64,000 bases of DNA from Ancylomarina sp. DW003 (GTDB taxonomy: Bacteria; Bacteroidota; Bacteroidia; Bacteroidales; Marinifilaceae). The stretch's first letter is position 1. The number at the start of each line of letters is the position of its first letter. A program made the position numbers and the translations under genes. Of the stretch, positions 7,400 to 55,239 are shown piece by piece. The stretch covers positions 1 to 64,000 of the forward strand of contig NZ_JAKJSD010000010.1 in the NCBI RefSeq assembly GCF_029029505.1. The letters run 5' to 3'. Below the pieces are notes generated by a model that had not been told where the DNA came from, did not search any database, and saw only the letters and a program-made list of their open reading frames with translations.

Positions 7400-7753
7400 A
7401 TGGATACAAGTAAAGTTGACCTTTTCCTGATGACTAACGCTAAGTACTTTGAAAGTTATCAAATCTCTACAATCAAAAATATGATTCAAGATTTAGATGA
7501 TGACAAATTCATTATTTTGCAGACGCTTAATCTAAAAGATCCAACTGTAGCTTTAATATTATCTCTTTTGAATATTGTCGCACCATTTTCGTTCGATCGA
7601 TTCTTTATTGGTGATATAGGTTTGGGTATTATTAAACTACTTACTTGTGGTGGGTTTCTGATTTGGATTATTGTCGATTGGTTTCTAATAATGGAACGTA
7701 CACGTCAGGTTAATTTTGAAAAGCTGCAACAAGCTTTAATGTATAATGCCTAA
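7400..7753 (+). CDS. TM2-domain membrane protein
   Basis: TM2-domain protein: two hydrophobic helices (ALILSLLNIVAPFSFDRFFI and GIIKLLTCGGFLIWIIVDWF) joined by the DRFF/GD turn typical of the family, preceded by about 45 soluble residues. Function of TM2 proteins in bacteria is unknown. The stop overlaps the start of the next gene by 8 bases, so the pair is translationally coupled. Confidence 0.9.
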   Translation: MDTSKVDLFLMTNAKYFESYQISTIKNMIQDLDDDKFIILQTLNLKDPTVALILSLLNIVAPFSFDRFFIGDIGLGIIKLLTCGGFLIWIIVDWFLIMERTRQVNFEKLQQALMYNA

Positions 7754-9100: not shown

Positions 9101-9210
9101 TTTGTATTAAATATACGAGTGGAAAAAAGTCAGTTAACTGTTATTCATCACATTAAAAGTGATTTATCATCAATATTTCGTAAATTTAGTCTAACCTAAA
9201 TCTGGAAAAT

Positions 9211-10074: not shown

Positions 10075-10132
10075 ATTTATCTTAAAAAATGAATGAAATT
10101 GAAGATACAATTTTTCAATCAAGTGGAATATT

Positions 10133-10894
10133 TTATTTTTTCGCCCTGATATACACGTGTTTTATTGTCGCTCTATCTGTTTCTCTTTCATCTATATCAA
10201 AATGTTTTTTAAGAGATTTAATCAAAGGAGTTAGTTTCTCAAAACCATAATTTCGTGGATCAAAATCTGGTCTTTTCTTAATCAATAGAGTTCCTACATC
10301 ACCAAGAAATGCCCAACCATCCTCATCAGCAATATCATTTATACTAGAAGCCACAAGGCTAATTATTTTTTTATCGAGCTTATAAATCGAACTCTTCTTC
10401 ACAACTTCCTGCTTAGGAGCTTCATCAACAACAGAAGATTCGGTAGTACTTGAACTTTTCAGGATCTCCAAGTAAATGAATTTATCACAAGCCACAATAA
10501 AAGGTTTGGGTGTTTTTTGTTCTCCAAAACCAAACACTTTCATCCCCGACTCCCTTAATCTGATTGCTAATCTAGTGAAATCACTATCGCTTGATACAAT
10601 ACAAAAACCATCAACTTTCTCGGTATATAAAATATCCATGGCATCGATGATCATAGCTGAGTCAGTCGCATTCTTACCTGATGTATAACCATATTGCTGA
10701 ATGGGTGTAATGGCATTCTCAAGAAGAACCGATTTCCATCCTGCCAAATTAGGTTTTGTCCAATCACCATAAATTCGTTTAAATGTTGGCACACCATATT
10801 TGGCAATTTCTTCCATCATACTTTTCACATTTCGCGAAGGCACATTATCAGCATCTATTATAACTGCAAGTTTTAAATCGTCTTTTGTTTTCAT
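10133..10894 (-). CDS. NYN-domain ribonuclease-like protein with C-terminal LOTUS domain
   Basis: Residues 1-145 form a NYN (PIN-like) domain: IDADNVP with the first metal Asp, DSAMIIDAMDIL, and SSDSDFTRL with the paired acidic residues expected of a metal-dependent RNase. Residues from about 170 form a LOTUS/OST-HTH domain (RPDFDPRNYGFEKLTPLIKS), an RNA-binding fold. This NYN-LOTUS pairing is common in bacteria and probably acts on RNA in the cytoplasm; the target is unknown. It precedes the patatin gene on the other side of a 73-base gap but in the same direction, so a loose operon is possible. Confidence 0.9.
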   Translation of the reverse strand: MKTKDDLKLAVIIDADNVPSRNVKSMMEEIAKYGVPTFKRIYGDWTKPNLAGWKSVLLENAITPIQQYGYTSGKNATDSAMIIDAMDILYTEKVDGFCIVSSDSDFTRLAIRLRESGMKVFGFGEQKTPKPFIVACDKFIYLEILKSSSTTESSVVDEAPKQEVVKKSSIYKLDKKIISLVASSINDIADEDGWAFLGDVGTLLIKKRPDFDPRNYGFEKLTPLIKSLKKHFDIDERETDRATIKHVYIRAKK

Positions 10895-13826: not shown

Positions 13827-14210
13827 TTATAACCTATTTCCAATAAAAGGAATATCTTTTCGTTGATAAAATAAAATGATCAAACTTAAAACAAAAGTTA
13901 CTATTGCCATATAGAACAATTGTCCCGAGTCCCCATTGATTTCGATACCCAATTGTGTTAAATGCATCATAATGGCACCACCTATTATTCCTAATACCAT
14001 ACAAGCACCAAACCATATTGTACGTGGAATTAAAATTAGAATACTGGCAACAAGTTCCAATACCCCAATCCCTATTCGTCCATTAGGTTCTAAACCAACT
14101 TGGGTGAAAATATAAACACTGTCGGGATGGGCAGAAAATTTAAACCAAAGCGTTTGAATAAGAATAATAGCAACTATAAGACGAAAACCCAGGAGTAATT
14201 TCTTTTTCAT
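13827..14210 (-). CDS. DoxX-family membrane protein
   Basis: Four-helix membrane protein of 127 residues fitting the DoxX family: RLIVAIILIQTLWFKFSAHP, then GIGVLELVASILILIPRT, LGIIGGAIMMHLTQLG and a final helix. DoxX proteins are linked to quinone or thiosulfate redox, but most are of unknown function. Divergent from the MarC-family gene. Confidence 0.88.
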   Translation of the reverse strand: MKKKLLLGFRLIVAIILIQTLWFKFSAHPDSVYIFTQVGLEPNGRIGIGVLELVASILILIPRTIWFGACMVLGIIGGAIMMHLTQLGIEINGDSGQLFYMAIVTFVLSLIILFYQRKDIPFIGNRL

Positions 14211-14355
14211 TGAATTTGTATTTTATTAACAATAAAAAAAATCTGATACGACTAAATATACTAATTTTTTAAGCTGACAACAAATTCAAATTTAATCTTA
14301 TTCTGATAAATTAGGATACACATAAATTAACAAGAGAATAACCTAGACTTAACTT

Positions 14356-15027
14356 ATGAAAAGCACCTTCTATCTAGATTTGAATAAAAAACAAATGGAA
14401 TTATTTATTTTATCATTCGGTGCTTTATTCTCAATTATGAACCCATTAGGCACTGTTCCTATCTTCGTAGGATTAACACAAAACAATAATAAACGAGAAC
14501 GAGCTGGCATTGCATTTTGGACCTCTTTCAATGTCTTAATTATCCTTGTATTTTCATTTTTTGCTGGAAAATATTTACTTTCTTTCTTTGGTATCAGCTT
14601 AAACTCCTTGAAGATTGCTGGTGGACTAATTATTGCCTCATCGGGTTTTGCTTTGCTAACAGGAAAGTTTACAGAGCACAAAGGGATGAAGAAAAGTCGG
14701 GTAAAAGACGATATTCATACTCGTTCGGAGATTTCATTAACACCACTAGCCATTCCAATGTTAGCCGGACCCGGAACAATTTCTTTATTAATAGCGTACA
14801 ATCAGGAATACACAAGCATGTTTGACTGTATAGCCATTTTGGGCTCAGTATTAGCTAATAGTTTGAGTATTTACCTCATCCTTAAATCATCACATTATAT
14901 CGTTAAGGTGCTTGGCGCATCCGGAATAAATGCCCTTTCAAGAATTATCGGCTTTATCGTAATTGCTATTGGAATTGAATTAATCATCGTGGCTGTTCTA
15001 AGTATTCTGAAGCTAGCCGGATTTTAA
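14356..15027 (+). CDS. MarC-family integral membrane protein
   Basis: MarC/UPF0056 family, about six helices, function unknown despite the historical multiple-antibiotic-resistance name. Family signature NPLGTVPIFVGLTQ near residue 35 and TPLAIPMLAGPGTIS near 133. The annotated ATG adds 13 residues; many homologues begin at the internal MELFILSF (ATG at 14,395), so the start is uncertain. Confidence 0.9.
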   Translation: MKSTFYLDLNKKQMELFILSFGALFSIMNPLGTVPIFVGLTQNNNKRERAGIAFWTSFNVLIILVFSFFAGKYLLSFFGISLNSLKIAGGLIIASSGFALLTGKFTEHKGMKKSRVKDDIHTRSEISLTPLAIPMLAGPGTISLLIAYNQEYTSMFDCIAILGSVLANSLSIYLILKSSHYIVKVLGASGINALSRIIGFIVIAIGIELIIVAVLSILKLAGF

Positions 15028-15103
15028 ATATATCTCCTGTTGATTATTTATAGAGATCTTTATGTTATGACCAGATCTTACATCCAAATTAGCATTCTTA
15101 ATA

Positions 15104-15192
15104 TTCTACGCAAAGAACGCAGAGAGAAAAACGCCAAATACGCTAAGGAAAATAAAAACAAACACTTTGCAATCTCTGCGTAATTTGAATCA
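15104..15192. repeat. Intergenic inverted repeat of the cgcaaagaacgcagag type
   Basis: Left arm acgcaaagaacgcagaga and, about 60 bases on, the inverted arm ending tctctgcgtaa, with imperfect pairing. A related but rearranged element lies at 39,950-40,020. These short palindromic intergenic elements occur in many Bacteroidota; this one lies between convergent genes and may terminate transcription. Confidence 0.55.
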
Positions 15193-15227
15193 TATATAAC
15201 TTAGCGAGCTTCACGTGAACTTTACAC

Positions 15228-17441
15228 TTAAACCACAAGTAATCCGTTCTCTCTAAGAGTCAAAATAGGCTTGGAATACCAGAACAATTCGAAATTTTCA
15301 AATTGTTTCTCAAAACTTTCTTTTAGTGAGGCAAAAGTAAAAACCTCTTCCTCATTTATCGAAAGTCGATCAAGATTATCTAGAAACCATTCGCCATGCT
15401 CTTTTTCCATGTCTACATCCACAACACCTATTTTATTGTGAAAACTCATCTCAAGAACCTCTCGAATTTTTCCCTTTTTCTTTTTAGTATAAGAAGAAAT
15501 CAGTGGCAATCCTCCTAACCAAATAACTTTTGCAGAAGCTTTACTTACGAATGACTCTTCAGCTTGCAAACAGTTTTGAATAAAACCTCGTTTAATTGTT
15601 GTACGCGGTATTTTAAAGTCAAACCATTCTTGTAAAGGCATATCAAAACCAATATCGTGCATATAGTTATAAAGAGATTTCTTTAAACCAAAACTAAACT
15701 TGTCATGTTTAATTCCTGTTTTGTCTTTAAATTGTACATCGTTATTTGCAAAGCTTATTTTGTCGTAAAGTGGTTTTAACCCATAGGCTTCAGGGTCGAG
15801 ACCAATAGGACTGTGAGCCGTTAAAGCAAATTGATGCCAAAAACCAGACTGGATAATACCTGCTTCAAACAATTGCCTGACCATCTCCAGACTATCTATT
15901 GTTTCCTGAATTGTTTCAGTAGGAAAGCCGTACATCAAGTAGACATGCACCATAATTTCTGATTCTGTCAGATTATTTGTAACACGAGCCACTTGTTCAA
16001 CTGTAGTTCCCTTATTAATTAATGCCAGCATTCGGTCTGAAGCTACTTCTAAGCCTCCGGATACTGCAATACAGCCTGACGCTTTAAGTAAATCACACAT
16101 ATCCTTAGTAAAACCTTTCTCAAAACGAATATTCGTCCACCAGGTCAGGCTTAGCTTTCTCTTGATAATCTCAATAGCGAGTGCTTTCATTAAAGCCGGA
16201 GGTGCCGCCTCATCTACAAAATGAAAACCAGTCTCACCCGTTTGGGCGATCAATTCTTCCATTCTATTAACCAAAGTCACAGCGGAAAGTGGATCAAAGG
16301 TTTTAATATAGTCTAAAGAGCCATCACAAAATGTACACTTTCCCCAGTAACAACCATGTGCCATAGTCAATTTGTTCCAACGACCATCACTCCAAAGACT
16401 ATGCATTGGGTTTGTAATCTCAATAACAGAAATATATTGATCGAGTAATAAATCTGAATAATCGGGTGTCCCTAATTCTTCTTGCTTGTAGTCTTTCAGG
16501 CTTGATTGGTTCTGAAATAAAACCTCTCCTTCTTTACAAAGGTAAGTTCGTTTTAAGTCTATATTATTCGAAGGATTGGAGATATATTGCCATAGTAGAT
16601 CTAAAGGTAATTCACCATCATCCAGAGTGATGAAATCAACAAAATCAAAAACACGAGAATCGGTTAAGCTTCGCAATTCTGTATTGGGGAAACCACCCCC
16701 CATCACGATTTTAATCTCAGGGTAATTTGCTTTTATAAACTGAGCACATCGGAAAGCAGAATATAAATTTCCCGGAAATGGAACTGATAAACAAAATAGC
16801 TTGGGTTGTATGTCTCTTAATTTCGCATCAAGGATCTGCAAACTAATCTCATCAATATAAGTTAACTCTTCTTGAAGCTTAGTATACATCTCATCAAAAC
16901 TCGAAGCCGATCGACCCAAGCGTTCTGCATAACGAGAAAATCCAAAATTCTCATCAATACATTCGATTATAAAATCTGAAATATCTTCCAAATATAAGGT
17001 TGCAATATGCTTAGCCTTATCCTGAAATCCCATCAAGCCAAAAGCTGTCTCCAACTCATTCACTTGATCGAAGCGAGAAGCTTGAGGTAAATAATTATCA
17101 GTGCATATCTGGCGTGCCAGACTTTGATTTTTCCCTTGCACAAAAGCAATAACAGAATCAACAGTTCTTAAATAATCAGCTTTTAAAGCATAAATGCGTT
17201 GTGCATTTTCTGAGTTAATGCGATCCTGTTCAAGTGCAGAATCAAAGATCCCTTCTAAGCTTTCTCTATTGAAAAGTGCCAAGATAACTTCTATACCCAA
17301 ATCCATCTGATAAGATGAAATCCCTTTGGTATTAAAAAAACCTTTCAGATAAGCCGTAGCTGGATAAGGTGTGTTAAGCTGCGTAAAGGGTGGTGTTAAT
17401 AGAAAAATATCTTTCACAATAGAAATGTTTAAATCATACAA
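15228..17441 (-). CDS. B12-type radical SAM protein with CX4CX2C cluster motif
   Basis: Predicted radical S-adenosylmethionine enzyme. Residues about 205-290 form a cobalamin-binding-like Rossmann domain (LRDIQPKLFCLSVPFP, then IVMGGGFPNTEL) without the B12-ligating DxHxxG. The radical SAM core follows; its cluster motif is HGCYWGKCTFCD with Cys364, Cys369 and Cys372, so the first spacing is four residues instead of three. The C-terminal 150 residues are unassigned. Length of 737 residues fits methyltransferase-like or RiPP-maturation-like members. No precursor peptide gene is seen next to it. Product and substrate unknown. Confidence 0.85.
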   Translation of the reverse strand: MYDLNISIVKDIFLLTPPFTQLNTPYPATAYLKGFFNTKGISSYQMDLGIEVILALFNRESLEGIFDSALEQDRINSENAQRIYALKADYLRTVDSVIAFVQGKNQSLARQICTDNYLPQASRFDQVNELETAFGLMGFQDKAKHIATLYLEDISDFIIECIDENFGFSRYAERLGRSASSFDEMYTKLQEELTYIDEISLQILDAKLRDIQPKLFCLSVPFPGNLYSAFRCAQFIKANYPEIKIVMGGGFPNTELRSLTDSRVFDFVDFITLDDGELPLDLLWQYISNPSNNIDLKRTYLCKEGEVLFQNQSSLKDYKQEELGTPDYSDLLLDQYISVIEITNPMHSLWSDGRWNKLTMAHGCYWGKCTFCDGSLDYIKTFDPLSAVTLVNRMEELIAQTGETGFHFVDEAAPPALMKALAIEIIKRKLSLTWWTNIRFEKGFTKDMCDLLKASGCIAVSGGLEVASDRMLALINKGTTVEQVARVTNNLTESEIMVHVYLMYGFPTETIQETIDSLEMVRQLFEAGIIQSGFWHQFALTAHSPIGLDPEAYGLKPLYDKISFANNDVQFKDKTGIKHDKFSFGLKKSLYNYMHDIGFDMPLQEWFDFKIPRTTIKRGFIQNCLQAEESFVSKASAKVIWLGGLPLISSYTKKKKGKIREVLEMSFHNKIGVVDVDMEKEHGEWFLDNLDRLSINEEEVFTFASLKESFEKQFENFELFWYSKPILTLRENGLLVV

Positions 17442-44358: not shown

Positions 44359-45072
44359 TTAATCTATGGTTCCTTCTGAGATCACCTCTTCCTCGATATT
44401 ATTCAATCTTAACAAAGAACTTGGAATTGGAAACCTAAACCTCTTCAATAAGTTTTCGTCCTCTTCGAAAATGATTTGAGCAGCCTTAAAATACAAAGCC
44501 AATTTTTCGTATAGCTTGTTTAATATTTCCACTCTATTCTCAGTAGCTCGCCTACGCTCTAAAATTCTATTATTCTGTCTATTCATAGCAGCTTTCAACT
44601 TATCGCGATGCTCCAAAATAGTTGCAAATTTCTCTTCTGTCCAACCATTTACCAGCAATGTATCTTTGTACCGAACAGCCATAGTATCAAAATCAGTCAA
44701 GAAAATAAACATATTTCCAGGCGACTTTCTAGCCTTCTCATAATCGTTAAATCCAAATTGGTTCCATACCAATTCATCATTAGAAAAAGCCATTTCAATA
44801 TCGATTTTACTATGCTGAAAGAATTCACAGCATATATCGTGCTCAATCTTCACGTCATGGCTTGCCTCAGCCAGAATATTGATAAACACCTTATCACTTG
44901 GAATTGTAGTTATCTGATCGTACAGATCATTTAATTCTTGCAATTTCCCTGGTGTAAAATGTATCGAAAAAGCTTCAAAATTAGAGCGCTTTTCATTAAT
45001 TATTTGAATACTATAACCAGAGCTAGTAATGAAATTAGCATCAGTACCATAATAAAATCTTAATTTGCTCAT
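44359..45072 (-). CDS. Uncharacterised soluble protein flanking the restriction-modification locus
   Basis: 237 residues, no signal peptide or membrane helix, and no family that I recognise. Residues 1-120 look mixed alpha/beta (LRFYYGTDANFITSSGYSIQ); residues about 150-200 form a basic helical region with RQNNRILERRRATENR and a likely coiled coil. It is divergent from vsr across a 460-base A+T-rich gap. Whether it belongs to the defence locus cannot be decided here. Confidence 0.6.
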   Translation of the reverse strand: MSKLRFYYGTDANFITSSGYSIQIINEKRSNFEAFSIHFTPGKLQELNDLYDQITTIPSDKVFINILAEASHDVKIEHDICCEFFQHSKIDIEMAFSNDELVWNQFGFNDYEKARKSPGNMFIFLTDFDTMAVRYKDTLLVNGWTEEKFATILEHRDKLKAAMNRQNNRILERRRATENRVEILNKLYEKLALYFKAAQIIFEEDENLLKRFRFPIPSSLLRLNNIEEEVISEGTID

Positions 45073-45536: not shown

Positions 45537-45950
45537 ATGGCAGACGTTCATTCAAAGAAAATACGCTCATACAATATGTCCCGAATTAAGAATAAGGATA
45601 CCTCCCCTGAAATTCTGGTTCGAAAGTTTCTTTTTGCCAAAGGGTTCAGATACAGACTTAATGTTAAGGACTTACCCGGAACACCTGATATTGTATTGAA
45701 AAAATACAAAACGATTATTTTTGTGAATGGATGCTTTTGGCACGGACACAAAGGCTGCAAGTATTTTGTTTTGCCTAAAACAAGAACCGAATGGTGGCTG
45801 CAAAAAATAAAAGACACTCAAAAACGAGACAAAAAGGCCGAAATAGAACTCAATGTTTTGGGTTGGCGTGTGATTACCATTTGGAGCTGTGAATTAAAAC
45901 CTAAAAAAGTAGAGCAAAGACTTAATTCCCTCATCAACAGTTTGCTTTAA
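45537..45950 (+). CDS. vsr: Very short patch repair (Vsr) endonuclease
   Basis: Endonuclease that nicks DNA beside T:G mismatches left by deamination of 5-methylcytosine, thereby protecting the methylation sites of a cytosine methyltransferase. The 137-residue length is usual. Active-site residues match E. coli numbering: Asp51 in PGTPDIV, His69 and His71 in CFWHGH, with zinc-type Cys66 and Cys74. MSRIKNKDTSPE is the family N-terminus. The methyltransferase gene follows 225 bases later. Confidence 0.95.
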   Translation: MADVHSKKIRSYNMSRIKNKDTSPEILVRKFLFAKGFRYRLNVKDLPGTPDIVLKKYKTIIFVNGCFWHGHKGCKYFVLPKTRTEWWLQKIKDTQKRDKKAEIELNVLGWRVITIWSCELKPKKVEQRLNSLINSLL

Positions 45951-46111
45951 TCCCTCCCTATTTATTATCAAAATATATTCCGAATGTGACTCATAGTCCG
46001 TTGATGTATAAGTTACATTAGAATAGCTTTGGACCAACTAATTACTCCAGACAACACATAATATTATGTGAAAATAAAGACTATAAAAATTGATATTTGA
46101 GATTAAGTTAA

Positions 46112-46119
46112 TATTTTTG
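46112..46119 (+). promoter_or_regulatory. -7 box upstream of the cytosine methyltransferase gene
   Basis: TATTTTTG matches TAnnTTTG, with attg 19 bases upstream as a possible -33 element. It would give a leader of about 50 bases and let the methyltransferase, ATPase and receiver genes be transcribed apart from vsr. Confidence 0.45.
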
Positions 46120-46175
46120 CTAAGGGTAAAAATAAGTATCATAAAACAGCTTTAATTAAAGATATCTACCAATAG

Positions 46176-47282
46176 ATGCGTGTGGGAAGAAAATTAAAAA
46201 ACAAGGCTTTAAAAGCCGTAGACTTTTTTTGTGGCGGAGGCGGCATGAGCTGTGGTATGCAGGAGGCTGGTGTGAAAATATTGGCAGGAATTGATCATGA
46301 AATAAATTGTAAAGAAACCTACGAGACAAATATAAAAGGTGCACAATTTATACAAGCCGATGTTTTCAAGCTTAAAGAGAAAGATTTAAAAAAACAGCTT
46401 AAGCTAGAAAAAAACGATGATGATCTGATATTAATTGGCTGTAGTCCATGTCAATTTTGGAGTATTATTAATACAGACAAAAAGAAATCAGAAGAATCAA
46501 AAAACTTACTAATCGAGTTTGAAAGATTCGTGAAATACTTGAGACCGGGGTATGTTGTAGTTGAGAATGTTCCAGGTGTCCTAAGGAAAAAGAAAGAAAG
46601 TGGCTTGGAAGCTTTTATTGAATGGTTAGAATCTGAAAAATATCAAGTCCATTTTGAGGTTCACAATACCAACGACTATGGTGTACCTCAAAACAGAAAA
46701 CGTTTTACTTTAGTTGCTAATAGAATTAGTGATGAAAAGATATTCCCAATTAAAGATGAAGGGAAAAGGCTTACTGTACGTGATGTGATAGGCGTAAAAA
46801 ATGGCTTTAAAAAAATTAAGACTGGTCATAAAGATAAAACTGACTTCATGCACTCTGTCGCAAACTTAAGTGACATTTGTAAAGAGCGCCTAACCTACGT
46901 TAAAAAAGATGGTGGGAATAGATTAGGTTTTGCACACATACCACATTTGCAATTGAAATGTTTTATTGGACGGGATAACTGTTTTAAGGATACATTTGGT
47001 CGTTTATGGTGGGACAGACCAGCAGGAACGATTACAACAAAATTTTATAGTATCTCCAACGGACGCTTTGTACATCCCGAAGAAGATCGAGCCTTATCAT
47101 TAAGAGAAGGTGCTGTACTACAAACCTTCCCTAAAGATTATAAATTTATAGCTACTAACACAGGAGCAATAGCTAGACAAATTGGCAATGCTGTACCTCC
47201 AGAGTACGCTAAAAGAATAGGACAAGCAATAATCAAAAATCATAAGAAATGGCTAGATTTAGAGCAAAAGCAAGAGCTGTAG
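46176..47282 (+). CDS. DNA (cytosine-5) methyltransferase
   Basis: C5-cytosine methyltransferase of 368 residues with the motifs in order: I VDFFCGGGGMSCGM, IV GCSPCQFWS with catalytic Cys92, VI VVENVPG, VIII QNRKRF, IX AGTITTKFYSISNGR and X RQIGNAVPPEYAKRI. Motif IV has FWS after the PCQ where many enzymes have FS or PFS. Target sequence cannot be read from the protein. The gene overlaps the ATPase gene by 34 bases, so they are translationally coupled. It should mark host DNA against the HNH endonuclease encoded downstream. Confidence 0.95.
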   Translation: MRVGRKLKNKALKAVDFFCGGGGMSCGMQEAGVKILAGIDHEINCKETYETNIKGAQFIQADVFKLKEKDLKKQLKLEKNDDDLILIGCSPCQFWSIINTDKKKSEESKNLLIEFERFVKYLRPGYVVVENVPGVLRKKKESGLEAFIEWLESEKYQVHFEVHNTNDYGVPQNRKRFTLVANRISDEKIFPIKDEGKRLTVRDVIGVKNGFKKIKTGHKDKTDFMHSVANLSDICKERLTYVKKDGGNRLGFAHIPHLQLKCFIGRDNCFKDTFGRLWWDRPAGTITTKFYSISNGRFVHPEEDRALSLREGAVLQTFPKDYKFIATNTGAIARQIGNAVPPEYAKRIGQAIIKNHKKWLDLEQKQEL

Positions 47283-50116
47283 AGTTATTAGGTAAAGGAC
47301 AAATAGCCGATTTACCAACTGCAATCTCAGAACTATGGAAAAATGGTTACGATGCATATGCTAAGAATTTAGAGTGTAAATTGTTTTTAGATTCTTATAA
47401 AGACAACACTTCCCCAATATTTCTTCTTTCTGATGATGGATTTGGAATGTCAAAAGAGGAAATTTTAAATAAGTGGTTTGTTCTAGGTACCGATTCGAAA
47501 GCTAGAAATGAAAGTATTCAATCCGAATTTGGATTAAAAAAGCGAACGCCAATGGGAGAAAAAGGGATAGGTAGACTTTCTGTTTCCTATCTAGGCGCGC
47601 AAATGTTGATGATTACTAAAAAGCAAGGAAAAAAAGCTAATGCATTTTTATTAGACTGGAGAGTACTTGAAAATTATGGATTTTTCCTAGAAGATTTAAA
47701 TATTCCTCTTTTTTCATTTGAATCCGAAAATGAATTTGAGAATAATTTTATTTCTGCAAAGTATGCATTTACAAGTAATTTTAATAAGGAATATTGGAGT
47801 GAACAAACTGAATTACGAGAAAGAATTACCTCTGAATGGGATCTATTAGACACTCGTACATTTATCAATGACGAAATTGTAAGATCTTACTGTGACAGTT
47901 GCCATCACGGGACCTCTTTTATTATTTTCACTCCTCACGAACAACTCCTCGAACTATCTAGTAAAGATCAAATAGCATTAAAAAACGACACATCATTAAG
48001 TTATCTTAGAGCATCATTAAGTGGTCTACATAACGATCTAAAAACTACGAATAAAGATTTTTCTACCAGATTTTTACTTTATGATGCTAGTGGGAAATAT
48101 GACTTAATCGATGATTTTCTCACCCAAGAAGAAATGAAAAATGCTGATCACTGGATGAAAGGAGAGTTTGATGAAAATGGATTCTTCTCAGGTGAAATTA
48201 AAGTTTTTAATAAGAGAGAGAAATATACTTTTCGCCCCAATAGACCACCTGGAAAAACATCCTATGGCCCTTTTAGTATAGAATGGGGTGCTCCTGAAGG
48301 TAATAGAACTAGCTCTGCTTTAAATGAAGAGCAGTACAACAACCTTGACAAAAAATTGCAGATTTTTGGTGGTTTATATGTTTACCGTGATGATTTTAGG
48401 GTATTACCTTATGGAAGAACAGAATATGATTTTTTAGAGTTTGAAAAAAGAAGAACATTAAGTGCAGGTTCCTATTTTTTTAGTCATCGTAAACTTATTG
48501 GATATATTGATCTAAAAAGAGAAAAAAACCCAAAGCTAACTGATAAAGCTGGTAGGGAGGGGTTTATTCAAAACAAAGCGTATCGTGAATTTAAGGATGA
48601 TTTAATTGAATTTTTTATTGATATCGCAAAGCGATACATGCGAGCTGGCAAGAATGATAAATTTGGAACTTTTAGAGAAAGTCAGTTGGCAGAAATAGAA
48701 GCTAAACACTATAAGCAGTTAGAGGCAGCTAAAAGAAAAAATAAGAAAACTAAGGCTGCTTTTCTCGATTCTCTGAGAGATAATCAGCCGCTACTAGAAA
48801 AACTTCAATTTGATTTAGAAGAATTAGAAACAGAACTAATAAATGAAGGAAATAAAATAGAAATAAACTATAACTCGTACAATAATCTTCTTGAGAAACT
48901 CAATGATAAAAAGAGTAAGATTAGAGATGTAAAGGTTCAAAAACCACAAGGTGTTAAGATTACTGAAAGACAAAATCAAACTTATCAATTGTATCAACAA
49001 ACTTTTTATAAACTTGATGCAAAAATGAAAATATGCATTGGGATTGTAGATAAAACAAGAGAAAGAATTAATGTCGAAAATCTTAAGCTCGAATACAATG
49101 AGAAATATCGTTCTCATATCAGATATATTGAACGTCAATTTTCCAATTATCAGAGTATTTCAAAGGATTCCTTTTCAAGAATAAATGATTTATTTCTAGA
49201 TGAAAGATATTCACAGGTTAACTCTTTTATTGAACAATCAAAACAATACAGCCTAAAGGAATCAGACATAAAGGAAGATATTGCACAAAAAATTCTTTCT
49301 GTAGAAGGAATAATTAATGAACAGAAAAAATCAATGGAGAACTCCTTTGAAGGGTTCATTAATCATATAACAAATTTACAAATCGATGTTGATGATGATT
49401 TTTTAAGAGGTTGGTATCAAGAACAGAATGAAACACTTCAAAATAAATTAAGTGACTACGAGGAATTGGCCCAACTAGGAATGTCAATTGAAATAATAGA
49501 TCACCAATTTAATGTAATGTATTCGCAGATGAATGATGCAGTGAAAGAAATCGGACGTTACAAAAACGGAAAGATAGATTTTAGTTATAACCAATTAAAA
49601 AATGCATTTCAACATTTAGAAGGAAATTACAAACTACTCAAACCATTATACAGAACAAGTCGACGTACAAGAGATTATATTTCAGGACAACAAATCAACC
49701 AATATATAAGTAAATTCTTCGAAAATGAATTTGATCGGTACCAGATTAAATTCGAGGTAAATGATGCATTTAAGAAGTTTGAATTCTTCACTTTTGATTC
49801 TATTATAAAACCCGTTTTTCTAAATATTATTAACAATGCTAACTATTGGTTAATATCATCGGAAAAAAGAATTATTAAGATAGAGTTAATTGATGAGGAA
49901 ATTAGAATTGTTAACTCAGGAGCTAGAATTGATGATGCAATGCTTGAAGATATATTTGGTCTATTTTTTACTCGAAAAAGAGATGGTCGAGGGATTGGTT
50001 TATATTTAGCTAAAAAGCATCTGAATTCGATTGGTTATGATCTAAGAGCAACAAATGAACCTGAGTATAATATATTAAATGGAGCTTGTTTTGTAATCTC
50101 CCAAAAAAAGAAATAA
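47249..50116 (+). CDS. Dual GHKL protein: Hsp90/MORC-like ATPase, coiled coil and histidine-kinase-like C-terminus
   Basis: 955-residue soluble protein with two ATP-binding folds. N-terminal GHKL ATPase: ISELWKNGYDAY (Asn32), SDDGFGM (Asp63) and GEKGIGRLS (103-111), complete. The middle (about 480-735) is highly charged and helical, predicted coiled coil. The C-terminus looks like a sensor kinase: H-box-like GMSIEIIDHQFNVM with His752, NIINNANYW (N box), IVNSGARID in place of DNG, FGLFFTRKRDGRGIGLYLAKK (F and G2 boxes). No membrane segment. It overlaps the methyltransferase gene and precedes the receiver gene by 7 bases. Similar MORC/MutL-like ATPases are known in restriction-modification contexts. 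Phosphotransfer to the neighbour is inference. Confidence 0.85.
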   Translation: MARFRAKARAVELLGKGQIADLPTAISELWKNGYDAYAKNLECKLFLDSYKDNTSPIFLLSDDGFGMSKEEILNKWFVLGTDSKARNESIQSEFGLKKRTPMGEKGIGRLSVSYLGAQMLMITKKQGKKANAFLLDWRVLENYGFFLEDLNIPLFSFESENEFENNFISAKYAFTSNFNKEYWSEQTELRERITSEWDLLDTRTFINDEIVRSYCDSCHHGTSFIIFTPHEQLLELSSKDQIALKNDTSLSYLRASLSGLHNDLKTTNKDFSTRFLLYDASGKYDLIDDFLTQEEMKNADHWMKGEFDENGFFSGEIKVFNKREKYTFRPNRPPGKTSYGPFSIEWGAPEGNRTSSALNEEQYNNLDKKLQIFGGLYVYRDDFRVLPYGRTEYDFLEFEKRRTLSAGSYFFSHRKLIGYIDLKREKNPKLTDKAGREGFIQNKAYREFKDDLIEFFIDIAKRYMRAGKNDKFGTFRESQLAEIEAKHYKQLEAAKRKNKKTKAAFLDSLRDNQPLLEKLQFDLEELETELINEGNKIEINYNSYNNLLEKLNDKKSKIRDVKVQKPQGVKITERQNQTYQLYQQTFYKLDAKMKICIGIVDKTRERINVENLKLEYNEKYRSHIRYIERQFSNYQSISKDSFSRINDLFLDERYSQVNSFIEQSKQYSLKESDIKEDIAQKILSVEGIINEQKKSMENSFEGFINHITNLQIDVDDDFLRGWYQEQNETLQNKLSDYEELAQLGMSIEIIDHQFNVMYSQMNDAVKEIGRYKNGKIDFSYNQLKNAFQHLEGNYKLLKPLYRTSRRTRDYISGQQINQYISKFFENEFDRYQIKFEVNDAFKKFEFFTFDSIIKPVFLNIINNANYWLISSEKRIIKIELIDEEIRIVNSGARIDDAMLEDIFGLFFTRKRDGRGIGLYLAKKHLNSIGYDLRATNEPEYNILNGACFVISQKKK

Positions 50117-50123
50117 TATAATT

Positions 50124-51782
50124 ATGAGTTTTGATATAATAGCTAAGGAAGTAATTGTGGATTCCATTCGTTCTGCAATTTGTATTGATGATAGTTATGC
50201 TTCGGCTTATTCTGACGATAAAAATTTAAATCATACAGAACCTAAAGATTTATATGAATCTTTTAGAAATATTGGGAAATGTGATTTAGATATTTACCAA
50301 TTTAAAAATCTTGAAGAAAGCTGGAATAAGGAATATATGCTTTCGAATAAGGATTTAATGATTTTGGATTGGGAGCTTAGCAAAATAGAACCTAAATATT
50401 CTGATACTTTAGCAATATTATCTGATGTGATAAAATCAAATAAAATTCCATTTGTTGTAATTTATACAAGTACGCCAGAACTTGGTAATATTAGTCGTGT
50501 TCTTTTTGAGGATTTTAATTTCATAACTAAGGATTTTGATAGAGATTCTATTATCACATCATTAAATACAGCGTTTGGTAAAGTGCCAAAAGATGGGGAT
50601 GATATTGATTTTGATAATTATCTCGATAGTGATACCTTAAAAGGATTTTTCTTTGATTATTTGAATCAAATAGAAGATAAAGGTGACAGAAAAGATGATA
50701 TTTTAAGTTTTCTAAGAGATCAGATGAAGCTTAAAATTAATAATGAGGCTATTTATGGTGTTCTTAAAAGGGTTTTATTAAAAGAATTACCTACAACAGA
50801 TGATTTATTAAAGGACTTATCTATAATGGCTCTTAACGCAGATGATAATAAAACTAAATCTTATAATATTAAAAGAATAAATGCACAGCCTTTAACTTTG
50901 AAAATTGATGGAACAACAATTTTAATATATCATAAAAAGGAACGAGGAGGTGTAAACCCAGAAGAGTTGTTTGAGGTGTTTTCACAAGCTATTATTGCTA
51001 ACCCTAATAATTATCTTAGTTTACTTTCATTAGAACTAAAAGATCAATTACGTGAAGAATTCTCAAAAATTGGAACGCGTTTTTCAGAAATAAATGAAAC
51101 TGCATTTTTCTATCATATGCAGAATTTTAGAAATAAGGAAAACAAAGAGTTTAATAAGCGAAATATATATGATTTTGTAATAAAAAGTTGGTTACAGGAT
51201 TTAAATACTCACAGGTTAGATGGAAAATCAAAAGTTGTGGGACTAGTTGATACGGCTTTTGATAGAGTTAAAAGTCCTATTCCTCTGGAAATTGACAAAT
51301 CAATTGAGGATCCGCTTATAAAATATTCGGCATTAATCTCAACATCAATTATGAAACGAGAAGATCAAATGTTGCGATTTGGTGATATATTTAAAAAAAA
51401 GGAGACTGATGAGTTTTATGTTTGCATAACGCCACACTGTGACTGTGTAAATCCAAGTGAAAAAATAAATAATAACTTCTACTTTATTAAAGGGAGTGTT
51501 GCTAATAAAGGAAAAGCTATTAGTGAAGCGGAAAAAAAGTTTTATTCATTTTTAGAATTTTCAGGAGAAGGACTTTGCATAAAATGGTCTTGTAAACCTT
51601 TTACTGCATACATTGTAGAAAATAATGTAGAAAATTTAAGTTTCACCTATAAAGGCGAGGATGCTTCGTTTGAATACATTACCACATTAAAAGAAAATTT
51701 TGCTCAACGTTTATCTAATGAATCTTTTGGTTATGGTTATAGGGTAGGTATTGATTTACCACATGCTGTAAGCCCAAATTAA
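50124..51782 (+). CDS. Receiver-like-domain protein paired with the dual GHKL ATPase
   Basis: 552 residues. Residues 15-140 have the four key positions of a receiver domain: acidic pair Asp22-Asp23 (AICIDDSY), phosphoacceptor Asp82 (LMILDWEL), Thr115 (VVIYTSTPE) and Lys136 (FITKDFD), with CheY-like spacing between the last three. The remaining 400 residues match no DNA-binding or enzymatic domain that I know; a Cys/His cluster CITPHCDCV lies near residue 435. It follows the ATPase gene by 7 bases and shares its low G+C. Probable output partner of the kinase-like protein; mode of action unknown. Confidence 0.75.
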   Translation: MSFDIIAKEVIVDSIRSAICIDDSYASAYSDDKNLNHTEPKDLYESFRNIGKCDLDIYQFKNLEESWNKEYMLSNKDLMILDWELSKIEPKYSDTLAILSDVIKSNKIPFVVIYTSTPELGNISRVLFEDFNFITKDFDRDSIITSLNTAFGKVPKDGDDIDFDNYLDSDTLKGFFFDYLNQIEDKGDRKDDILSFLRDQMKLKINNEAIYGVLKRVLLKELPTTDDLLKDLSIMALNADDNKTKSYNIKRINAQPLTLKIDGTTILIYHKKERGGVNPEELFEVFSQAIIANPNNYLSLLSLELKDQLREEFSKIGTRFSEINETAFFYHMQNFRNKENKEFNKRNIYDFVIKSWLQDLNTHRLDGKSKVVGLVDTAFDRVKSPIPLEIDKSIEDPLIKYSALISTSIMKREDQMLRFGDIFKKKETDEFYVCITPHCDCVNPSEKINNNFYFIKGSVANKGKAISEAEKKFYSFLEFSGEGLCIKWSCKPFTAYIVENNVENLSFTYKGEDASFEYITTLKENFAQRLSNESFGYGYRVGIDLPHAVSPN

Positions 51783-51795
51783 AAATGAAATAAAG

Positions 51796-51823
51796 AAAGC
51801 CGAAATTAATCTTCGGCTTTTTT
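51796..51823. terminator. Bidirectional intrinsic terminator between the receiver gene and the HNH gene
   Basis: Stem aaagccgaa / ttcggcttt, 7-base loop, T-run on the right and A-run on the left. The stop codon of the HNH gene lies inside it. Confidence 0.8.
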
Positions 51824-53047
51824 ATTAAGATATTGTTTCCAACGAGTAGCAAGTGATTCTCTAGAAGGTCCTTTACTTTTTGCTGGTAACTTTAAAGGAA
51901 TTCCCTGAAGTTTTAAATACTCCCCTATAGCAGCTTGTGGTTTAATTCTAATAATCAACTTTTCAGGATCAATTCCTAAAAGATCTAAATCAAAAAGCGT
52001 GTGTATATCACTTCGTAGTAACAAACCGTTTTCAGGATGATTATCTTTCTCTCCCCTATAAGGCGCAATATGGGCAGCTTCCAGTACTTCAACTAATTTA
52101 CAGCCCGTAACCATACAACAATCACCATATCGCCTTCTAAGATCTCTTCTAAATGCAGCCTGTCCTTTCCGCTCTGCGATTTGCCTTAAGACTTTGTTTC
52201 TCTCATCCTCACCATTATCAACATACCCAAGTTTATCATCCTTAGCGGATACAAAAGCGGTATTCTCAGGGTATTTGATTGGTACTGCTTGTAATTGACT
52301 TGCAACAGAAGGAAATTGAGTAGAAATAAAATCAAAATTCAACTTTTGAATAGACATATTCCTATTATATCCCTTTATATAATAATCTCTTAATGAAGAG
52401 TTTGATTCACCTCGTACATGATAAAACCCTTCATAGTACGCAGTAAATTGATCAACTTCAATTTCTTCACTATCTCTATTCTCAAACTCATGCCCCTTAT
52501 TACAACGATAAGGAGGTGTCTTGGTTTTCCGTCTTTCAACCTGAGTATTGCCACATTCAGGGCAACGATAACGACTTTTTAAGACGTTTGAACTATTAAT
52601 CTTCTTAATTTTAGCAAAACCAAGGATTTCTTTTTTATTAATTAGAACAATCCAATCCTTTTCCTTTACATTCTTATGGTTAGGGACTGTGGTGTCGTAC
52701 ACATAATACTCATCTATTTTATCAGCGTATCCATCATTCCCTTCGTATGCCCTACCTTCACTTACCGTTTTAAAAACCCAGAGATCCCCTTTGATATTAA
52801 GGAGTGGCAAACTACTTTGTTTTCTAATAGAGCTTTGTTTTCTAAAATAACCTTCAAAGCCAGTATCTAATGAAACAGCAAGTTTTTCAATGGTATCTAT
52901 TTTTGGCTGTCTTTCACCTCTTTCTATCAATCCAATATGATTTGGATGTATATCAGTTAGTTCCGCCAGTTTTTCCTGACTATATCCTTTGTTTATACGG
53001 AGTTTGCGAATATATTCGCCAAATGTAAGTGTATTTTGATTGAGCAT
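51806..53047 (-). CDS. HTH - zinc ribbon - HNH endonuclease, probable restriction enzyme
   Basis: 413 residues with several parts. Residues 9-62 are an XRE-type helix-turn-helix (YSQEKLAELTDIHPNHIGLI), as in controller proteins. Residues about 85-155 look like an EVE/PUA-type small barrel (KDWIVLINKKEILGFAKIKK). A zinc ribbon follows with Cys162, Cys165, Cys182 and His186. The C-terminal HNH_2-type nuclease has CCMVTGCKLVE, LEAAHIAPY (His326), HPENGLLLRSDIHTLFD (Asn340, His349). It converges on the methyltransferase operon and shares its terminator, so it is likely the nuclease of that system. The barrel assignment and modified-base reading are inference. Confidence 0.85.
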   Translation of the reverse strand: MLNQNTLTFGEYIRKLRINKGYSQEKLAELTDIHPNHIGLIERGERQPKIDTIEKLAVSLDTGFEGYFRKQSSIRKQSSLPLLNIKGDLWVFKTVSEGRAYEGNDGYADKIDEYYVYDTTVPNHKNVKEKDWIVLINKKEILGFAKIKKINSSNVLKSRYRCPECGNTQVERRKTKTPPYRCNKGHEFENRDSEEIEVDQFTAYYEGFYHVRGESNSSLRDYYIKGYNRNMSIQKLNFDFISTQFPSVASQLQAVPIKYPENTAFVSAKDDKLGYVDNGEDERNKVLRQIAERKGQAAFRRDLRRRYGDCCMVTGCKLVEVLEAAHIAPYRGEKDNHPENGLLLRSDIHTLFDLDLLGIDPEKLIIRIKPQAAIGEYLKLQGIPLKLPAKSKGPSRESLATRWKQYLNKKAED

Positions 53048-53133: not shown

Positions 53134-53236
53134 ATCGGGAGTTATAAGGAACAGGTATCGGGAGTAGTAAGGAACAACAACCAGTAGTAGTAAGGAACTG
53201 GTATCGGTAGTTATAAAGACCAACAATCGGGAGCAC
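53134..53236. repeat. 23-bp tandem repeat, four and a half units, upstream of the HNH gene
   Basis: Units start at 53,134, 53,157, 53,180 and 53,203, each exactly 23 bases, plus a partial unit at 53,226. The core is atcgggagt-g/ta-taaggaac. Units 1 and 3 end in ggt, units 2 and 4 in caaca, so there is also a 46-base period. It begins about 90 bases upstream of the HNH start codon. Confidence 0.85.
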
Positions 53237-54339: not shown

Positions 54340-55062
54340 ATGAGAAATAGAAAACATATACGACTCCGAAATTTTGATTACAGCTCAGAAGCCTGGTATT
54401 TTATTACCATTTGCACCAAAAATAGGGCACATACTCTTGGAGAAATTGAACATGGACAAATGCACCTATCGGCAATAGGAAAGCAAGCTAATTTGTATTG
54501 GAACGAGATTCCTAAACATTTTCCTCATACAGAACTGGGCGAATTTATAATTATGCCTAACCATATTCATGGGATTATTGGGATCAATAAAAAAAATAAG
54601 AATACCGCACGGACACGACATGTCGTGTCCCAACCAACGGATAATCTTATTAAATCTCTAAAAAAAATAGAAGAATCAGAATGGATACGACATAGCGAGA
54701 CCCAATCATACAATTCAAAAAATAAAAACAATACCGTACGGACACGACATGGCGATACCCAATTATACAATCCCAAAAATAAGAACAATACCGTACGGAC
54801 ACGACATGTCGTGTCCCAACTAGAAAAAACCAACCAATTTGGAAAAACCATAGCCGGATCCTTATCAGCAATAATAGGCCAATTTAAATCATCATTAACC
54901 CGATGGAGCAGAAAAAATGGCTACGATAATTTTGCCTGGCAAGACCGATTTCACGACCATATTATCCGCAACGACGGCGCTTTTCAACGCATATCCAATT
55001 ACATTAAAAACAACCCTGCTAATTGGCAGAAGGATAAATTTGGCGCTCTCCCAAAGAAATAG
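54340..55062 (+). CDS. REP-associated Y1 transposase with in-frame repeat insertions
   Basis: 240-residue RAYT. The HUH motif is EFIIMPNHIHGII near residue 75 and the catalytic Tyr is in QRISNYIKNNPANW near 222. Between the two, residues about 84-167 are an insert in which the short peptide NTVRTRHVVSQ or a close variant occurs three times. The DNA for this insert is made of the same palindromic repeat (cgtacggacacgacatgtcg...) that also lies just downstream of the gene. The reading frame survives, and the core motifs are intact, so the enzyme may still work. Confidence 0.88.
   Translation: MRNRKHIRLRNFDYSSEAWYFITICTKNRAHTLGEIEHGQMHLSAIGKQANLYWNEIPKHFPHTELGEFIIMPNHIHGIIGINKKNKNTARTRHVVSQPTDNLIKSLKKIEESEWIRHSETQSYNSKNKNNTVRTRHGDTQLYNPKNKNNTVRTRHVVSQLEKTNQFGKTIAGSLSAIIGQFKSSLTRWSRKNGYDNFAWQDRFHDHIIRNDGAFQRISNYIKNNPANWQKDKFGALPKK
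54600..54820. repeat. Family R4 palindromes inside the transposase gene
   Basis: Full copies of ggacacgacatgtcgtgtcc at 54,611-54,630 and 54,797-54,816, a variant at about 54,739, and a degraded copy near 54,683. The spacer cggataatcttattaaatct between them is repeated outside the gene at 55,100. Confidence 0.85.
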
Positions 55063-55063
55063 A

Positions 55064-55225
55064 AATACCGCAGTACGGTCACGACATGTCGTGACCCAAC
55101 GGATAATCTTATTAAATCTCTAAAAAAATAGAAAAATCAGGATGGATACGCCATGGCAATACCCAACTATACAATTCAAAAAAATAAAAACAATACCGTA
55201 CGAACACGACATATCGTGTCCCAAC
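55064..55225. repeat. Downstream copy of the intragenic R4 repeat block
   Basis: Aligns with 54,601-54,767 inside the transposase gene over its whole length with few changes: R4 palindrome (ggtcacgacatgtcgtgacc), spacer cggataatcttattaaatct, then a degraded and a further R4 palindrome (gaacacgacatatcgtgtcc at 55,202). The palindrome ggtcacgacatgtcgtgacc carries matched changes in both arms, which keeps the hairpin. Confidence 0.85.
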
Positions 55226-55239
55226 TTTTCCATCTAAAA

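Follow-up and report, generated by a model that had tools for sequence, protein, structure and literature searches.

A methyltransferase, a MORC-type ATPase/histidine kinase hybrid and a receiver protein form a constant gene trio in Ancylomarina sp. DW003 and in related loci: a possible methylation-guarded defence module

The closest described relatives of the locus reported here are the HEF_HK kinases and their Response_reg_2 partners, which were named by Bellieny-Rabelo et al. 2021 (PMC8011034) and linked there to C5 methyltransferases, Vsr and HNH_2. In that paper a kinase-receiver linkage of 91.6% is given and no output domain is assigned to the receiver protein. This kinase-receiver family is thus already predicted from sequence since 2021, and it is found widely. 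Among the matches listed in our literature search there was no experimental work on it. Further relatives are the MORC-type ATPases of restriction-modification (R-M) operons, among which, according to the excerpt of Iyer et al. 2008 (PMC2292703), paraMORC3 has an RE-fold nuclease while a TIR domain is found in paraMORC4, and the GHKL-Shedu protein VcSduA, which, as the excerpt of the corresponding paper reports, is inactivated by changes in either its ATPase or its nuclease site (PMC12137116).

The locus lies in a window of 64,000 nt (positions 1 to 64,000 of contig NZ_JAKJSD010000010.1), to which all coordinates refer. Re-checking of the ORF coordinates confirmed the five genes of a preliminary description of this DNA. 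On the plus strand, a gene for an accessory Vsr-like endonuclease of 137 aa (45537-45950; Pfam Vsr, 3.9e-33) is followed by the three core genes, which encode a C5-cytosine DNA methyltransferase of 368 aa (46176-47282; Pfam DNA_methylase, 1.3e-57), a hybrid of a MORC-type ATPase and a histidine kinase with 955 aa (47249-50116; assigned by Pfam, predicted structure and structure matches) and a receiver protein of 552 aa (50124-51782; Response_reg_2, PF19192, 9.8e-20). A second accessory gene converges on them from the minus strand (51806-53047) and encodes a protein of 413 aa with an HTH, a zinc-ribbon-like and an HNH_2 part (Pfam HTH_3 8.3e-13, HNH_2 6.8e-13; the zinc-ribbon matches are all below the cut-off). 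It matches C.BclI (2e-9) and the HNH endonuclease 6yex (2.8e-4).

As claimed earlier, the ATPase gene begins within the methyltransferase gene (34 bp are shared) and ends 7 bp before the receiver gene. One transcription unit, as proposed there, appears likely for these three genes and less so for Vsr. Since the Vsr gene is located 225 bp upstream of the methyltransferase gene and differs in third-position GC content (0.38, as compared to 0.28 for the methyltransferase, 0.22 for the kinase and 0.18 for the receiver gene), only the trio looks like a tight unit; the gap, the base composition and the presence of Vsr in 19 of 58 loci (see below) weaken its candidacy as an operon member. The low values across the trio fit horizontal gain, and the HNH gene (0.23) resembles the trio in this respect. 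Between the converging genes there is indeed an inverted repeat (51796-51820, no strand assigned) which extends into the end of the HNH gene and could form the shared terminator suggested before, but the terminator scan as a whole did not rise above chance (4 terminators, as compared to 3.6 expected). Matches to sigma-70 and Bacteroidota-like promoter patterns were non-selective.

How constant this arrangement is was analysed in 80 loci drawn by kinase similarity, 58 of which have 6 kb on both sides. In all 58 the methyltransferase, kinase and receiver genes occur together, with a C5 methyltransferase within 2.5 kb in 58 and the receiver gene within 300 bp in 57; in the exception, L059, the receiver gene follows a split kinase gene. 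Samples drawn by the receiver family instead gave the trio in the window and in 7/7 and 9/9 further loci (16/16), three of the 16 being contigs that are also among the 80 kinase-drawn loci. Pairwise identities of kinases and receivers are correlated (0.88, as compared to a maximum of 0.15 in 200 permutations). Several loci define the limits of these counts. The phylum sample contained 16 receiver-family matches in 15 genomes, and the eight below the Pfam cut-off were all left out of the receiver-first count; two of them, L010 and L016, resemble ordinary response regulators by eye. Also left out were one and four below-cut-off matches in the two further receiver samples, three genomes already counted (G000, G084, G099) and the copy L107. 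L077, L084 and L088 show no methyltransferase, but their contigs stop a short way from the system; where an ORF of the methyltransferase, kinase or receiver is split or shortened (L059, L087, L090, L098, L143, L151), it was taken as it stands. The core of the system consists of methyltransferase, kinase and receiver, while Vsr and HNH are variable.

The preliminary description had treated the latter two as parts of the system, which as fixed parts of the whole family are not supported: within 6 kb, Vsr is found in 19 of the 58 loci, the HNH family of this locus in 14, both in 5 and neither in 30. The downstream slot is taken by nucleases of several families (HNH_2, HNH, NOV_C, YhcG/PDDEXK_7). 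In L059, L033 and L044, the three nearest relatives, an HNH protein of the same family as here does lie beside the receiver gene. Because of this and of the trio-like GC content of the HNH gene, the HNH protein may be integral to the system in this clade, although its distribution disfavours it as a fixed restriction enzyme of the whole family. In 15 of the 30 loci with neither gene, a scanned downstream neighbour matches no nuclease family, nine of these neighbours matching a non-nuclease family and six no family at all. Scanning extended to upstream neighbours in only four of these 30 loci, and in four no downstream neighbour was scanned; for these reasons, and because of the six family-less neighbours, such loci may have nucleases that were overlooked.

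The methyltransferase is the sole C5 enzyme found in the genome, and its nearest solved relatives are M.HaeIII and DNMT1. Variation in the presumed target-recognition region is about as slow as in the remainder of the protein, a hint that these methyltransferases may share a motif or have related ones. Further, in 91 of 488 pairs with methyltransferase identity above 0.6 the kinase identity is below 0.42, so that C5 enzymes appear to have been swapped between distant kinase lineages. In L043 no C5 methyltransferase was found in the flanks covered, which extend over 2.5 kb on the upstream and 9 kb on the downstream side; an N6-adenine methyltransferase adjoins the receiver gene and probably stands in place of the C5 enzyme. 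Both this replacement and the exchange of C5 enzymes would be expected if methylation itself is the requirement. Homologues occurring mainly without a methyltransferase, which according to the preliminary description would speak against the link, were looked for, and the link was not refuted.

The 955-residue protein was predicted in that description to combine a GHKL ATPase with kinase H-box chemistry, and our models suggest a MORC-type ATPase that is connected by long helices to a histidine-kinase core. Three Pfam families match above the cut-off (HATPase_c_3 1.6e-14, HEF_HK 8.5e-21, HATPase_c 4.8e-9). The structure model has a pLDDT of 81.7 and a pTM of 0.57, and because of the latter the arrangement of the domains is uncertain. 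The N-terminal GHKL and S5 module (approximately residues 5-484; 47261-48700, plus strand) is assigned by structure matches and conservation: residues 5-478 match MORC3 (5ix2_A; Z 19.8, 340 aligned, rmsd 4.3), Foldseek found MORC4 at 7.0e-13, and E28, N32, D62, G64, G66, K105 and K433 are kept in 75 of 75 kinases. The ATP-site motifs are thus intact, as in MORC and paraMORC ATPases. The HEF_HK dimerisation and His-phosphotransfer domain (DHp; residues 742-806; 49472-49666, plus strand; Pfam) contains His752 (codon 49502-49504), which is kept in all 75 kinases and is followed by Gln in 21, including this locus, and by Glu in 54. Model confidence around His752 is among the lowest in the protein, residues 741-752 having a pLDDT below 50. 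The catalytic ATP-binding (CA) domain (HATPase_c; residues 855-951; 49811-50101, plus strand) was found by Pfam and by structure match, the kinase core aligning with ThkA (3a0t; Z 18.0, 143 aligned, rmsd 2.4). N859, N863, G891, G913, G915 and G917 are present in 75 of 75 kinases; at residue 889, a position of the ATP-site motif that is usually Asp, Asn is found in 62 and Asp in 13. Structure matches that span both domains, e.g. 4biw_B (Z 16.8, 194 aligned, rmsd 5.0), agree with the layout of two-component kinases, in which the DHp domain with its phospho-accepting His precedes the CA domain. For the kinase, PADLOC gave only a type II restriction enzyme match, and tblastn against plasmids gave 91 records, three of them with at least 80% of the query.

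The receiver model is of higher confidence (pLDDT 89.5, pTM 0.86). Its receiver fold, which matches PorX (8tef_D; Z 9.2, 116 aligned, rmsd 2.9), has the acidic pocket, Asp, Thr/Ser and Lys of two-component receivers: D22 and D82 are conserved in 71/71 sequences, T115 in 60/71 (Ser in 11) and K271 in 68/71. The predicted phospho-acceptor is Asp82 (codon 50367-50369). Thus the claim of receiver chemistry beside a methyltransferase was corroborated at the level of residues and modelled folds. PADLOC gave no match for our receiver protein, no relatives of it were found in viral contigs, and tblastn against plasmids gave no match. Detocs-type systems are kinase/receiver defence systems as well.

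The C-terminal output domain of the receiver protein (residues 416-543; 51369-51752, plus strand) is perhaps MazF/PemK-like in shape, a borderline assignment made by structure match only. In VIA these residues align with MazF 9g48_B (Z 8.2, rmsd 3.6, 100/114 aligned), which was one row among 50, and the fold search barely covered this part of the protein. With the whole receiver model, Foldseek found MazF 6kyt_J (probability 0.99, E 0.035) and, in BFVD, two PemK-like rows (E 0.043 and 0.22), the matched query range being given for none of them; no match at E <=0.001 was counted in either library. Profile similarity to PF02452 was absent, as 19 of 60 local and 51 of 60 global decoys were equally good. 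When 43 of the 71 C-termini were scanned with Pfam, none matched PemK, and a profile search of PDB sequences gave no match; on these grounds we rejected the C-terminus as a proven MazF. It has a conservation pattern of its own (G420 and C439 71/71, C434 66/71, D440 67/71, R529 65/71, R540 68/71). By eye and post hoc, the conserved arginines in MazF and in this domain are similarly spaced, which we do not count as evidence.

From these data we infer DNA sensing, phosphotransfer, the action of the output domain and a role in phage defence, and as the best reading we tentatively favour a defence-type module of three genes which is guarded by DNA methylation; its chances are somewhat short of even. 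The methyltransferase would mark the cell's own DNA. The MORC-type part, a sensor by analogy, would act as an ATP-driven clamp which is joined by the long helices to the kinase core and closes on phage or plasmid DNA without the mark. Closure would turn on the kinase core, resulting in self-phosphorylation of His752, and the phosphate would pass to Asp82 of the receiver protein. This could release or activate the C-terminal domain, which would be the constant effector and may act directly or recruit one of several exchangeable neighbour nucleases, here the HNH protein. A more specific version, in which the effector is a MazF/PemK-like toxin and unmarked DNA triggers suicide of the cell through the MORC sensor and the kinase relay, is decidedly unlikely; if true, modification without a restriction enzyme would still give immunity.

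Other readings share parts of this evidence. The kinase and receiver could form an ATP-driven restriction complex in which the MORC clamp finds unmethylated sites, the two-component fold serves as a conformational switch rather than a phosphorelay, and DNA would be cut by the receiver C-terminal domain or a recruited nuclease. The loci with the trio and no recognised nuclease alongside are in line with this, as are the excerpts in which gene neighbourhoods serve to predict MORC/MutL-like ATPases in R-M operons (PMC2292703) and the GHKL ATPase-nuclease fusion VcSduA restricts phage (PMC12137116). However, every or almost every copy retains the residues for phosphoryl transfer, and among the matches listed for either model the only nuclease fold is that of the MazF/PemK rows, a ribonuclease; we regard this complex as rather unlikely.

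The same intact His and receiver residues, together with the linkage of the pair to R-M genes, would suit a two-component system that regulates expression or activity of the neighbouring R-M system, a speculation found in the discussion of Bellieny-Rabelo et al. 2021 (PMC8011034). Against it, Pfam recognises no DNA-binding output domain in the receiver protein, a good share of the loci lack a recognised separate restriction enzyme to control, and the trio is one tight unit, so that the main target of regulation would be this unit itself. Such a regulator seems unlikely. Very unlikely is an ordinary type II R-M system with the HTH-HNH protein as the restriction enzyme, Vsr as its repair partner and the ATPase and receiver as accessories. 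A DNA methyltransferase, Vsr and HNH are all at the locus, the HTH part resembles controller proteins such as C.BclI, and a candidate cognate enzyme of the same HNH family is present in the nearest relatives, but family-wide it is Vsr and HNH that come and go while kinase and receiver are constant. Even in near relatives the slot varies, with HNH_2 of different length and orientation in L033 and L044 and an AAA protein in L087.

With a near-constant methyltransferase, a variable nuclease and a candidate output fold, what was a loose association becomes specific enough to ask whether it is by a phosphorelay that a methylation system tells self from non-self. If true, bacterial two-component signalling would be joined to restriction-modification, and the MORC ATPases of eukaryotes, part of which have a role in gene silencing (PMC8011034, discussion), would gain a tractable bacterial cousin.

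Compared with known systems, the BbrUII/HgiDII restriction enzymes (NCBIfam NF050001) match kinase residues 10-202 at 9.1e-17; the score is 60.8 bits where the cut-off is 550, and the GHKL start is all that the best stretch covers. The MazF/PemK toxins (PF02452) share with the output domain a structural alignment of borderline strength and differ from it in profile and in conserved residues, which here include two Cys and an Asp. Like our kinase, VcSduA fuses a GHKL ATPase to another module, and it is phage-tested; its effector is a fused PD-(D/E)xK nuclease, and the excerpt (PMC12137116) mentions no kinase core, receiver or methyltransferase partner. The paraMORC ATPases, as described in the excerpt of PMC2292703, share with this locus the GHKL and S5 domains with intact ATP-site residues and the methylase, Vsr and HNH neighbours, whereas the kinase described here adds long helices and a DHp-CA core and has a receiver partner. 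The closest system is group 1 of HEF_HK/Response_reg_2 (PF19191, PF19192), which has the same order of HATPase_c_3, HEF_HK and HATPase_c in one protein, an adjacent Response_reg_2 gene, a C5 methyltransferase upstream and Vsr and HNH_2 as neighbours. The kinases of group 1 are further characterised as soluble proteins lacking transmembrane segments. The locus is a new copy of this group and nothing sets it apart as a kind; the combination that stood out in the preliminary description was published in 2021. To the description of group 1 our analysis adds a methyltransferase which, in smaller samples, is as constant as the kinase and probably a near-constant third partner, a nuclease as variable fourth, and a MazF-like fold proposed as candidate output of the receiver.

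The locus at 45537-53047 contains all five ORFs at exactly the positions claimed in the preliminary description. Pfam assigned Vsr to the first gene (45537-45950, plus strand), a C5 DNA methyltransferase to the second (46176-47282, plus strand), HATPase_c_3, HEF_HK and HATPase_c to the 955-aa kinase (47249-50116, plus strand) and Response_reg_2 to the 552-aa receiver protein (50124-51782, plus strand). The convergent gene (51806-53047, minus strand) carries HTH_3 and HNH_2, and a hairpin (51796-51820) lies between the converging receiver and HNH genes. The methyltransferase is the sole C5 enzyme found in the 4.8-Mb genome, where the kinase-like domain was also found once. The spacing between vsr and the methyltransferase gene is 225 bp. 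Third-position GC is 0.38 in vsr versus 0.28, 0.22 and 0.18 in the methyltransferase, kinase and receiver genes; it is 0.23 in the HNH gene and 0.34-0.43 in five other flanking genes.

Several further features were seen around this locus. Upstream of vsr, the ORF at 44359-45072 (minus strand) matches the PQLLE family weakly, with 35 bits at a cut-off of 80. A 23-bp unit is present in four tandem copies (53134-53225) between the HNH gene and an HU/DUF4469 gene. Further downstream, an IS200-like Y1-transposase gene (54340-55226), which we take to be of the RAYT type, harbours several palindromic 47-nt repeats inside its own CDS and just downstream; allowing up to two mismatches, no copy of their core palindrome was found elsewhere in the genome assembly.

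To compare gene neighbourhoods across genomes, 11 aligned kinases served as the query against genome contigs. The best 80 of at least 555 relatives were taken, and neighbours were counted in the 58 loci whose contigs extend 6 kb or more to either side. Each of these 58 loci, selected for similarity of the kinase, has a C5 methyltransferase no more than 2.5 kb from it: in 53 the enzyme is encoded upstream in the same orientation, and in five downstream, four of these on the opposite strand. The receiver gene follows the kinase gene within 300 bp in 57 loci; the exception is L059, where the kinase gene ahead of it is split.

Since these loci were drawn by kinase similarity, sampling by receiver family was added. 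The family scored above cut-off in 8 of 296 genomes of the phylum sample, the genome of the window included, and in 8 of 395 genomes of the class sample, three of them seen before. In the class of Citrobacter (locus L107), 369 genomes yielded five places above cut-off in four genomes, one being L107 itself. The family occurs above cut-off in about 1-3% of the sampled genomes. Besides the window, methyltransferase, kinase and receiver stand side by side in 16 of 16 such loci (seven from the phylum sample and nine others); three of the 16 (L027, L028 and L031) sit on contigs that, judged by length and position, coincide with those of L071, L076 and L052 in the 80-locus set, and two contain broken ORFs (the kinase in L143, the receiver in L151). 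The linkage to a methyltransferase proposed in the preliminary description was recovered in kinase-chosen (58/58) and receiver-chosen (16/16) loci alike. On the three plasmids with a full-length kinase, receiver and methyltransferase adjoin it in each case; for the Pantoea plasmid locus L019, an incomplete gene table lists no annotated nuclease beside the trio.

The broken kinase of L143 belongs to a second copy of the trio in Citrobacter youngae, the genome of L107, and is split into ORFs of 791 and 239 residues, the other two ORFs being intact. Shorter two-HATPase proteins of 722-738 aa were seen in L023, L024 and L026 (first pair), with a receiver-like or unassigned partner and no HEF_HK match. 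A C5 methyltransferase adjoins such proteins in Campylobacter and Burkholderia plasmids, and a full trio is nearby in L026. These pairs are perhaps a sister kind.

That Vsr and the HNH protein are parts of the system, as had also been proposed, finds no support as a family-wide rule: within 6 kb, Vsr is present in 19 of the 58 loci, the HNH family of the window in 14, both in five and neither in 30. Other nuclease families occupy five of these 30 loci: HNH (L051, L054, L097), NOV_C (L048), and YhcG with PDDEXK_7 (L047). An AAA ATPase of approximately 600 residues, forming one family according to clustering (with Pfam on L035), is present in five (L034, L035, L038, L042, L087), and L079 encodes an ORC-CDC6-like protein that includes a kinase domain. 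In 15 loci the scanned downstream neighbour, small ORFs being skipped, matched no nuclease family; other families were matched in nine of them (L045, L060, L066, L073, L086, L098, L102, L103, L111) and none in six (L070, L076, L096, L099, L107, L110). These counts cover all of the 30 loci except L056, L057, L075 and L095, and the upstream scan covers L066, L073, L076 and L107. The cleanest locus, L066, is flanked by DNA polymerase I upstream and an ABC-type ATPase downstream. Among the recognised nucleases, then, none serves the whole family as a constant effector. The window's three nearest relatives by kinase identity point the other way (74% for L059, 70% for L033 and 69% for L044, among the best 80 of at least 555): in each of them an HNH gene of the window's family adjoins the receiver gene, and the HNH protein may thus be a regular part in this clade.

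Additional observations concern other genes beside these systems. Downstream of the receiver gene, an AAA_15/AAA_21 ATPase of approximately 600 residues is encoded in seven loci, the five named above together with L147 (by eye) and L148; according to PADLOC, the L035 and L148 proteins resemble HEC-04/AriA/OLD-type defence ATPases. Related proteins adjoin the HNH gene in L052 (13626-14453) and L083 (13534-14388), and the L052 copy has matches to DUF6602 and a NucC-like effector. In L111, a GlmS-like gene (13973-15847) with SIS and glutamine amidotransferase domains lies at the end of the trio; mobile elements are known to insert at genes of this kind.

Pairwise identities of kinases and receivers in 76 systems are correlated with a coefficient of 0.88 (maximum of 200 permutations, 0.15), and those of kinases and methyltransferases with 0.75. 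The methyltransferases of the window (46176-47282) and of L068 (815-1897), a Sulfurimonas-labelled MAG contig, are 88% identical and the adjoining kinases 37%, which possibly reflects a methyltransferase swap or a mis-binned contig. Among pairs with methyltransferase identity above 0.6, kinase identity is below 0.42 in 91 of 488; among those with kinase identity above 0.55, methyltransferase identity is below 0.42 in 22 of 336. In L043, a 995-residue N6-adenine methyltransferase (7230-10217, Eco57I/MmeI-like) comes after the kinase-receiver pair, and no C5 enzyme was found within 2.5 kb upstream and 9 kb downstream. Taken together, the apparent exchange of methyltransferases and the N6 enzyme of L043 suggest that the pair may depend less on one particular enzyme than on the genome being methylated.

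In the predicted structure of the kinase (pLDDT 81.7, pTM 0.57), residues 5-478 match MORC3 (Z 19.8, rmsd 4.3 over 340 aligned residues) and residues from about 740 to 955 match histidine-kinase cores, the catalytic domain matching, for instance, ThkA (3a0t; Z 18.0, 143 aligned, rmsd 2.4). Long helices, taken for a coiled coil in the model, join the two parts. Invariant in 75 sequences are E28, N32, D35, D62, G64, G66, K105, G106, G108 and K433 in the MORC part and H752, N859, N863, G891, G913, G915 and G917 in the kinase part. Model confidence is low at residues 741-752 (pLDDT below 50). In 54 of the 75 sequences H752 is followed by Glu, and in the other 21, the window's kinase among them, by Gln. 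At position 889, where Asp is usual in kinases, 62 sequences have Asn and 13 Asp.

The receiver model (pLDDT 89.5, pTM 0.86) aligns with receiver structures from residue 13 to about 290 (PorX 8tef_D: Z 9.2, 116 aligned, rmsd 2.9). In this model the receiver fold comprises about residues 14-130 and 249-292 with a mostly helical insertion between them, which places Lys271, following strand 264-270, in the position of the beta5 lysine. D22 and D82 are conserved in 71 of 71 sequences and Lys271 in 68, and position 115 holds either Thr or Ser in all 71. Past residue 292, the model has a helical region (296-406) and a mostly beta domain (416-543). For the latter, the only covering row of 50 in the VIA comparison is MazF 9g48_B (Z 8.2, rmsd 3.6, 100 of 114 aligned). 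Foldseek with the receiver model (query range not given) returned MazF 6kyt_J (probability 0.99, E 0.035, TM 0.57 by target). Against the viral library it placed one PemK-like protein at rank 5 (E 0.043, TM 0.25 by target) and another at rank 18 (E 0.22, TM 0.30 by target); no match at E of 0.001 or below was counted in either library. Compared with 26 MazF sequences, the domain's profile scored no better than shuffled controls: 19 of 60 decoys reached the local score of 11.75, and 51 of 60 the global one. PemK was found by Pfam in none of 43 C-terminal sequences scanned (of 71), and searching PDB sequences with a profile of the C-terminal domain returned nothing relevant. The domain has conserved residues of its own: G420 and C439 (71/71), C434 (66/71), D440 (67/71), R529 (65/71) and R540 (68/71). 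Judged by the model, it is perhaps MazF-like in shape.

In the most likely reading, the trio would work by methylation-marked self, a MORC clamp and a relay to the receiver output. The methyltransferase would mark self DNA, and the clamp, by analogy with MORC and MutL-type clamps, would close on unmarked DNA, upon which the kinase core would fire. The conserved residues suggest that the receiver protein would then be phosphorylated by relay. Its output domain would act, as proposed from the borderline fold match and from the trio being the constant part, with the exchangeable nuclease as optional help.

Kinase and receiver could instead be a regulatory pair, or form an ATP-driven restriction complex without true phosphotransfer; both are rivals of the clamp-and-relay reading. 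An ordinary type II system with kinase and receiver as accessories is disfavoured, since the distribution of the genes across loci counts against it.

MORC and paraMORC ATPases in restriction-modification operons were described by Iyer et al. 2008 (PMC2292703, in its accessible part). According to the accessible part of a 2025 Vibrio paper (PMC12137116), VcSduA, which was tested there, is also a GHKL fusion, yet of other make-up than the window's kinase. HEF_HK (PF19191) and Response_reg_2 (PF19192) were defined by Bellieny-Rabelo, Pretorius and Moleleki 2021 (PMC8011034), whose accessible text already contains their pairing exactly as in the window, with 91.6% linkage across 644 regions and the three-domain form as the main kinase architecture (174/222). 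Restriction-modification genes are over-represented around the pair there, with C5 methyltransferases often upstream, Vsr nearby in 20 genera and HNH_2 as the best-represented nuclease domain. The same text assigns no output domain to the receiver protein and offers control of restriction-modification systems by the pair as speculation; the literature matches listed included no experimental study of the pair. Among the matches listed, two other papers cite the 2021 title and one further paper mentions HEF_HK. The window's arrangement is real and interesting, but it belongs to a family already in print since 2021. What is added to that description is that, in these samples, the methyltransferase is a constant third partner whereas Vsr and HNH vary. 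As far as the predicted structures indicate, the MORC assignment is also new, as are the finer detail of the receiver's anatomy and the hint of a MazF-like output domain.
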